The notes under the pieces are model-generated. The model saw nothing but the letters and a program-made list of their open reading frames with translations, was not told the DNA's origin and searched no databases. This document shows positions 5,254-7,440 of a DNA stretch of 7,440 bases, one piece after another. This stretch comes from an uncultured bacterium (lineage in GTDB: Bacteria; CALINM01). The stretch covers positions 1 through 7,440 of the forward strand of contig CALINM010000241.1 in the NCBI GenBank assembly GCA_938045315.1, in the 5' to 3' direction. Position 1 is the first letter of the stretch. Each line of letters starts with the position of its first letter. Made by a program: the position numbers and the translations under genes.

Positions 5254-5259
5254 TAATAA

Positions 5260-5265
5260 CCTCTC
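5260..5265 (-). promoter_or_regulatory. Ribosome binding site of hemE
   Basis: On the minus strand GAGAGG lies 6 nt before the ATG at 5253-5251. It is the only good ribosome binding site seen in the hem operon; hemH and hemY start within the preceding gene and appear to rely on coupling. Confidence 0.7.
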
Positions 5266-5283
5266 ATAAAAGTTTTAGTCATT

Positions 5284-5313
5284 AGTATAAACGAAAAAAT
5301 AAGAAAAATACAG
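5284..5313 (-). promoter_or_regulatory. Possible hemE operon promoter
   Basis: On the minus strand TATACT (5289-5284) is a fair -10 hexamer, with a poor -35 (CTGTAT, 5313-5308) 18 nt upstream. Transcription would begin near 5277, giving a leader of about 24 nt before hemE. The -35 match is weak and the region is AT-rich, so this is tentative. Confidence 0.28.
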
Positions 5314-5406
5314 AGCGATTGTTAGATATAGAATATTGTACGTGGTGAGTTTTAAGGTTTTAAAAGATTATTTAATTATGGAAAATCAACAGTTTTATAA
5401 ATACTA

Positions 5407-5440
5407 ATAGATTCGAATCATAAAAGTCTTTTGAATCTAT
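5407..5440. repeat. Inverted repeat in the divergent hemE / DUF438 intergenic region
   Basis: ATAGATTC (5407-5414) is mirrored exactly by GAATCTAT (5433-5440). With one G-U pair the RNA stem could extend to 11 bp around a 12-nt loop. The left arm also contains a perfect 10-bp palindrome, GATTCGAATC (5410-5419), so three GAATC-type half-sites lie within 34 bp. It sits about 75-110 bp upstream of the probable start of the rightward transcript and about 150 bp upstream of hemE. It could be an operator for either gene. It is not a convincing terminator, because no coding region ends near it. Confidence 0.45.
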
Positions 5441-5480
5441 AAATTTTTTTAAGCATGTTAACAATTTTTAAAAACTAAAC

Positions 5481-5508
5481 TTGCTTAATAATTTTTTTGT
5501 GGTAGTAT
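5481..5508 (+). promoter_or_regulatory. Probable promoter of the DUF438-hemerythrin gene
   Basis: TTGCTT (5481-5486) and TAGTAT (5503-5508) are separated by 16 nt, and TGG directly precedes the -10, making an extended -10 element. Transcription would start near 5515, leaving a short leader of about 15 nt that contains the ribosome binding site. Confidence 0.5.
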
Positions 5509-5517
5509 TTTTTAAAG

Positions 5518-5524
5518 AAGGGGG
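5518..5524 (+). promoter_or_regulatory. Ribosome binding site of the DUF438-hemerythrin gene
   Basis: AAGGGGG ends 5 nt before the ATG at 5530. It is a purine-rich Shine-Dalgarno-like site that supports this start codon. Confidence 0.6.
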
Positions 5525-5529
5525 ATTTT

Positions 5530-6709: not shown

Positions 6710-6868
6710 TCAAAGCTTTTGAAATTCTGATTTTGGAGCTCCACAAAGAGGACATACCCAATCTTCTGGCAACTCTGAAAAAAGAGTTCCAGCAGGTATT
6801 CCATTATCTGGATCACCTTCTTTTTCATCATAAATATAGTTACAGACTGTGCAGAGCCATTTATCCAT
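6710..6868 (-). CDS. rub: Rubredoxin
   Basis: This is a small cytoplasmic electron carrier with one iron held by four cysteines. It has 52 residues, exactly the classical length. Cys6 and Cys9 (in CTVCNYIYD) and Cys39 and Cys42 (in [11 protein letters not shown]) are the Fe ligands, and [10 protein letters not shown] at 19-28 and LPEDWVCP at 33-40 are diagnostic. The frame is open upstream to an ATG at 6919, but that would add 17 non-rubredoxin residues and begin inside the -35 element. The start at 6868 has GAAGGAG 5 nt upstream and fits the family. Rubredoxins donate electrons to rubrerythrin, superoxide reductase or flavodiiron NO/O2 reductases; no such partner is visible here, though the convergent neighbour is a hemerythrin-domain protein. 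It appears to be transcribed alone from its own promoter. Confidence 0.97.
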
Positions 6869-6873
6869 ATAAA

Positions 6874-6880
6874 CTCCTTC
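6874..6880 (-). promoter_or_regulatory. Ribosome binding site of rubredoxin
   Basis: GAAGGAG on the minus strand lies 5 nt before the ATG at 6868-6866. It settles the start codon in favour of the 52-residue protein over the longer frame from 6919. Confidence 0.85.
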
Positions 6881-6891
6881 AATTTTTTTAA

Positions 6892-6919
6892 AGTTTACCA
6901 TATTAGATATGTATGTCAA
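6892..6919 (-). promoter_or_regulatory. Rubredoxin promoter, sigma-70 type with extended -10
   Basis: On the minus strand a perfect TTGACA (6919-6914) is followed after 16 nt by TAAACT (6897-6892), with TGG directly before the -10. Transcription would start near 6885, giving a leader of about 17 nt that carries the ribosome binding site. Inside the spacer is the inverted repeat CATAT-TAG-ATATG (6899-6911), a position where repressor operators often lie, but in such AT-rich DNA it may be chance. Confidence 0.62.
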
Positions 6920-6943
6920 CTAAGAAGCAACCTTATTTAGATG

Positions 6944-7440
6944 TTAACTCATTTTTTTAAGAGCTAAATGATTATAAGCATCAAAATTTCCTCCTGTGCA
7001 TGCTTTCTCAAGATAATTAAAAGCTATTATATAATCCTGTGTTAACTTTTTCTAATTTATACATAAGACCTAAGTTATATCACCTTTCATAATTTGTGGT
7101 TATCACAAAAAGTTTTATATAATTGTGTGGCTATAGGATAGTTTCTTTCCCCCTATTTACCTCTTATATTTAAGCCGCCTTAGTTATAAAATGCAAGAGA
7201 TAATTTTTGAGTCACAAGCTTTTTTATAATTGCTAATTGCTGATTTATAGTCCAGTTTTGTGCCGAGCCCTTGTTCATAAAGCATGTCTATATTATCACA
7301 CCTATCAGTAAGACCACTATCACATGCTTTTTAACTTAATCTAAAGATTTTGAATAATCCTTATTATTTTTACGCTTCTTCTCCTTCATCAATAATATTT
7401 GCATGGTCTATTGAAAAAGTCATAAATATGTTAAATATTA
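6944..7440 (-). pseudogene. Decayed Sel1-repeat (Hcp-like, cysteine-paired) protein gene, probably running off the window edge
   Basis: No long frame survives, but the minus strand reads as Sel1 repeats if frames are switched. From right to left: DEGEE (about 7390-7376) and KDYSKSLD (before a TAA); then an open stretch of 48 codons at 7330-7187 with KACDSG, LYEQGLGTKLDYKSAISNYK and a second KACDSK; then IRGK, a TAG (7155-7153) and GERNYPIATQLYKTFCD; then LGLMYKLEKV; and last AFNYLEKACTGG, NFDAYNHLA and a final TAA at 6946-6944. In-frame stops also lie at 7186-7184 and 7089-7087, with about four frame changes overall. Intact relatives are alpha/alpha-solenoid proteins; in Helicobacter Hcp proteins Cys pairs 8 residues apart form disulfides, and the first unit here keeps that spacing (CDSGLTDRC). 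No signal peptide or start can be placed. Several stops plus indels argue for a true pseudogene rather than one sequencing error. No other gene is seen in 6869-7440. Confidence 0.72.
6998..7330 (-). repeat. Four Sel1-like repeat anchors with a 36-codon period
   Basis: The Cys codon of the Lys-Ala-Cys-Asp-type anchor occurs at 7324-7322 (KACD), 7216-7214 (KACD), 7107-7105 (TFCD) and 7000-6998 (KACT). The steps are 108, 109 and 107 nt. The Sel1 unit with Hcp-type spacing is 36 residues, or 108 nt. The +1 and -1 departures coincide with places where the reading frame must change to follow the repeat, as expected for small indels in a decaying gene. Confidence 0.72.

Follow-up and report, generated by a model that had tools for sequence, protein, structure and literature searches.

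The window, meaning the whole stretch of DNA analysed here (7440 bp), is an entire contig (C241) of a MAG that comprises 244 contigs and 1.86 Mb and is 91.8% complete. It carries genes for a NiFe-hydrogenase large subunit (end only), a hydrogenase cytochrome b and a maturation protease, followed by hemG, hemH, hemE, a gene for a DUF438-hemerythrin-PAS protein and a gene for rubredoxin. The rubredoxin gene is intact (6710–6868, minus strand, ATG at 6868; 52 aa), and its product is 94% identical in the single genome that served for same-genus comparison (G001; MAG SKW176, 'Proteobacteria bacterium isolate SKW176', JAOABK010000009.1). The other family member is G002, at 84% completeness. Since just two genomes among the 40 relatives listed belong to the same family, with the remaining ones sharing the domain only, the window's lineage seems isolated and poorly sampled. 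To the right of rubredoxin, no long reading frame was found on either strand.

Within this apparently blank flank, four Cys anchors lie on the minus strand: two of the form KACD (7319–7330 and 7211–7222, with Cys codons starting at 7324 and 7216), one TFCD in a different frame (Cys codon 7105–7107, starting at 7107) and one KACT (Cys codon 6998–7000, starting at 7000). Their TGY codons are separated by exactly the 108, 109 and 107 nt that a first-pass annotation of this DNA had reported, and fall in frames 2, 2, 0 and 2. One Cys pair is retained (7324/7300), and the partners of the other anchors are mostly gone. The Sel1 blocks that had been picked out between the anchors, including LYEQGLGTKLDYKSA and YNHLA, are indeed present, and two open pieces (KACDSGLTDRCDNIDMLYEQGLGTKLDYKSAISNYKKACDS and TQDYIIAFNYLEKACTGGNFDAYNHLAL) independently match the Pfam Sel1 profile (E values of 0.0012 and 0.0074, both matches being under the family cut-off of 30.7 bits, as expected of fragments).

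An intact counterpart is found in G001, where an open Sel1 gene of 394 aa with nine complete 36-aa units (L034:10025–11209) starts 1 nt past the enoyl-CoA hydratase gene and stops 65 nt short of rubredoxin. Its product scores 285.9 bits against PF08238, with units at 36-residue steps, and its cysteines lie at residues 49/57, 85/93 and so on to 373/381, so that every 36-residue unit has Cys at its positions 1 and 9. Among solved structures, those nearest to it are 6ok3 (a Sel1 repeat protein) and 1ouv, which is HcpC of Helicobacter, and the paired cysteines align with those of the latter, in keeping with the paired-Cys (Hcp) kind and 36-residue period to which the first-pass annotation had assigned the repeats. 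Judged by eye, the N-terminus of the G001 protein is hydrophobic and ends in CYAD; this protein and the relic's ancestor were thus probably exported, as had been supposed when a secreted or periplasmic product was proposed. As a family, Cys-paired Sel1 proteins are alpha-solenoids that undergo export and bind to other proteins.

The translated, frameshift-aware comparison with a Sel1 protein that had been suggested as a check bears out the family assignment. In a frameshift-tolerant alignment to the G001 protein, the relic scores 296, against a mean of 31.7 (sd 3.9) and a maximum of 43 among 200 dinucleotide-preserving shuffles, and a translated search of the family's three genomes with the same protein matched the window's genome at 6956–7426 only, with internal stops (E = 3 × 10−18). 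By Pfam profile at E ≤ 0.001, no second Sel1 gene was found in the whole assembly of the window's genome.

At the nucleotide level, an alignment with a long-gap state stays colinear all the way from window 7440 (gene position 26), past the site of the original stop codon (6935–6933), into rubredoxin, with 70% nucleotide identity over 502 aligned positions. The relic thus occupies 6933–7440 on the minus strand and continues on a second contig (C235); the earlier extent of 6944–7440 was right in location and slightly too small. This alignment replaced a first one in which gap extension was nearly free and the relic was scattered over the gene. A local protein alignment that put the first half of the relic on repeats 4–5 was likewise overruled by the nucleotide alignment and the translated searches, which identify that half as the N-terminus plus repeat 1, a placement adopted for its colinearity on either side.

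In the window's genome, the hydratase orthologue stops 16 nt before the end of C235, a contig that matches G001 colinearly along its full length; C235 therefore neighbours the window, and the relic is flanked by the neighbours of the intact gene. The two contigs are adjacent, and the assembly breaks inside the relic (between window position 7440 and L130, contig C235, 1–16). By alignment, the gap between them holds approximately 10 nt of the relic, and the relic's 5′ end, amounting to approximately the first 25 nt of gene sequence, falls either within this gap or on C235. With the hydratase only 16 nt from the contig end, nearly the entire relic is known.

Relative to the G001 gene, the relic has stops in three aligned original codons (7333, 7182 and 7082) and approximately seven small indels, mostly not multiples of three, consistent with the at least three internal stops and several frame changes first noted by eye and with the view that the gene is decaying. 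Across the relic, the three minus-strand frames contain 16, 24 and 12 stops, and a full-length product would be impossible. Two larger gaps were also observed, one of 432 nt (4 × 108 nt, four repeats; junction at 7188–7189) and one of 217 nt (approximately 2 × 108 nt, two repeats; junction at 6958–6959). Together with the Sel1 signal, these features confirm a pseudogene on the minus strand of 6933–7440, one that formerly encoded a Sel1-repeat protein with paired cysteines (Hcp-like).

Divergence between the relic and the G001 gene is 0.26, 0.20 and 0.45 at codon positions 1, 2 and 3, respectively, compared with 0.06–0.25, 0.02–0.16 and 0.39–0.50 for the neighbouring genes. Given the third-position excess in the relic (P = 1 × 10−6), the Sel1 gene was under selection during part of the time after the species split. 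The neutral share of the window lineage's own branch comes to approximately 15–70%, depending on the assumed baseline, which is a rough bound and gives no date. Because this codon signature is kept beside many indels, the decay appears not to be very old, and other strains may have an intact allele.

We consider it very probable that the locus is a unitary pseudogene, in which the genus's single Sel1 gene was kept in SKW176 and broken in the window's lineage. Counting against the pseudogene reading are the MAG assembly (91.8% complete) and the contig break inside the relic, and the same two features, along with the visible third-position signature, would favour a live Sel1 gene in which only sequencing or assembly errors interrupt the frame, the alternative that the first-pass annotation had itself set against decay. 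However, stops and indels run throughout 500 nt here, whereas eight neighbouring genes on two contigs (approximately 7.3 kb, 67–94% amino acid identity) are open, so errors confined to the Sel1 gene are improbable; in addition, nonsense substitutions occur besides the indels, and the two large gaps cover whole repeats. We therefore regard a live gene as very unlikely.

Even less credence is given to a co-opted remnant, for example one serving as a leader or regulatory RNA of rubredoxin, which the relic's position directly upstream of that gene on the same strand might suggest. Downstream of the relic and outside it, rubredoxin has a promoter-like element of its own (TTGACA-N16-TAAACT; 6892–6919, minus strand), and this element is conserved in G001 (TTGACT-N16-TAAACT), in line with the earlier description of an intact rubredoxin promoter. 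No Rfam match was found in the relic region, and the predicted RNA fold of 6869–7440 is no better than those of shuffled sequences (z = −0.71). The stops in all frames argue, with moderate confidence, for a relic without remaining function. The blank flank is thus a gene relic, and caution is warranted against taking it for a regulatory region of rubredoxin. Finally, the probability of a chance or low-complexity likeness in AT-rich spacer DNA is negligible, for despite the 28% GC content and a mild enrichment of KACD-like DNA patterns in the window (11 found versus 5.7 expected, with 2 mismatches), it is refuted by the orthologue in the same place, with its colinear end-to-end alignment, and it is at odds with both the shuffle control and the whole-genome E value.

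For the unitary pseudogene, a likely history can be outlined. The genus ancestor would have had one gene for a probably exported Cys-paired Sel1-repeat protein, between enoyl-CoA hydratase and rubredoxin. Repeat number would have shifted in the window's lineage by four plus two units of approximately 108 nt, most simply via inter-repeat recombination, as the gap sizes suggest; selection on the gene would have lapsed; and the small indels and stops now seen in the relic built up. These steps may have come in any order. Loss in the window's lineage, rather than gain in the sister, is strongly supported because the relic sits in the orthologous place. A deletion of repeats in the window's lineage, rather than an expansion in the sister, is favoured moderately. 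The most alike pair among the nine complete G001 units shares no more than 65% DNA identity, which rules out a recent expansion; an old one may have occurred. With one same-genus genome, and with no rubredoxin, Sel1 or close DUF438 protein found in G002 (84% complete), deletion versus expansion has no outgroup polarity. In itself, a bacterium losing a gene is an ordinary event.

The relic resembles the Sel1 family (PF08238, SLR proteins) in the 36-residue units, in the 286-bit score of its orthologue and in the pieces that still match the profile, and differs in that the window copy is broken. The likeness to Helicobacter Hcp proteins (HcpC, 1ouv) extends to the orthologue's two cysteines per unit, 8 residues apart and aligned with those of HcpC, and to what looks like an exported-type N-terminus; here, however, the host lineage is far removed, the window copy is not fully translatable, and disulfides and export are putative. 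The closest parallel is hcpG of H. pylori, for which pseudogenes account for 28 of 64 alleles, mostly via frameshift, and two to seven modules are seen in the functional alleles (PMC3608669). The gene kind, the frameshifts and premature stops, and the variable repeat number are shared with those alleles, whereas hcpG represents a within-species polymorphism amid many paralogues and the relic a between-species difference in the sole detectable Sel1 gene of its genome. Since frequent pseudogenes and variable repeat number were already on record for hcpG, the relic adds one more case to a known class and decides no open question. It offers a non-Helicobacter case of a Cys-paired Sel1 gene that would have changed its repeat number and that died, and an example of an empty-looking contig flank that proves to be a relic placeable in time against a sister species.

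A second, nearly wholly erased gene is suggested near the relic. In G001, an intact gene for a 632-aa sulfatase-family (LTA-synthase-like) protein (L034:12730–14628) lies between the DUF438 protein gene and hemE; the corresponding slot in the window measures 276 nt only (5254–5529). A probable remnant of the last approximately 25 codons was detected on the minus strand at approximately 5350–5424 (score 72, reached by 1 of 1,000 shuffles), and its distance from hemE approximately agrees with that in G001. No close copy of the G001 LTA-synthase-like sulfatase was found in the window's genome, in which other sulfatase-family genes are present. That the Sel1 gene was lost recently and adaptively along with this sulfatase gene, as part of a joint loss of envelope or secreted functions in this lineage, seems unlikely to us.

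At the other end of the window, the hydrogenase large subunit ends in DPCLACAIHVARR (at 745–786), only four residues past the expected maturation-protease cleavage histidine; C-terminal extensions of hydrogenase large subunits are usually longer. The G001 match to this subunit spans the same end and is 94% identical overall. The hydrogenase genes (1–1946) adjoin hemG in the window, but in G001:C161 the large subunit shares a contig with hemG and lies approximately 15.7 kb beyond it, so that the two species differ here by an insertion, a deletion or a rearrangement.
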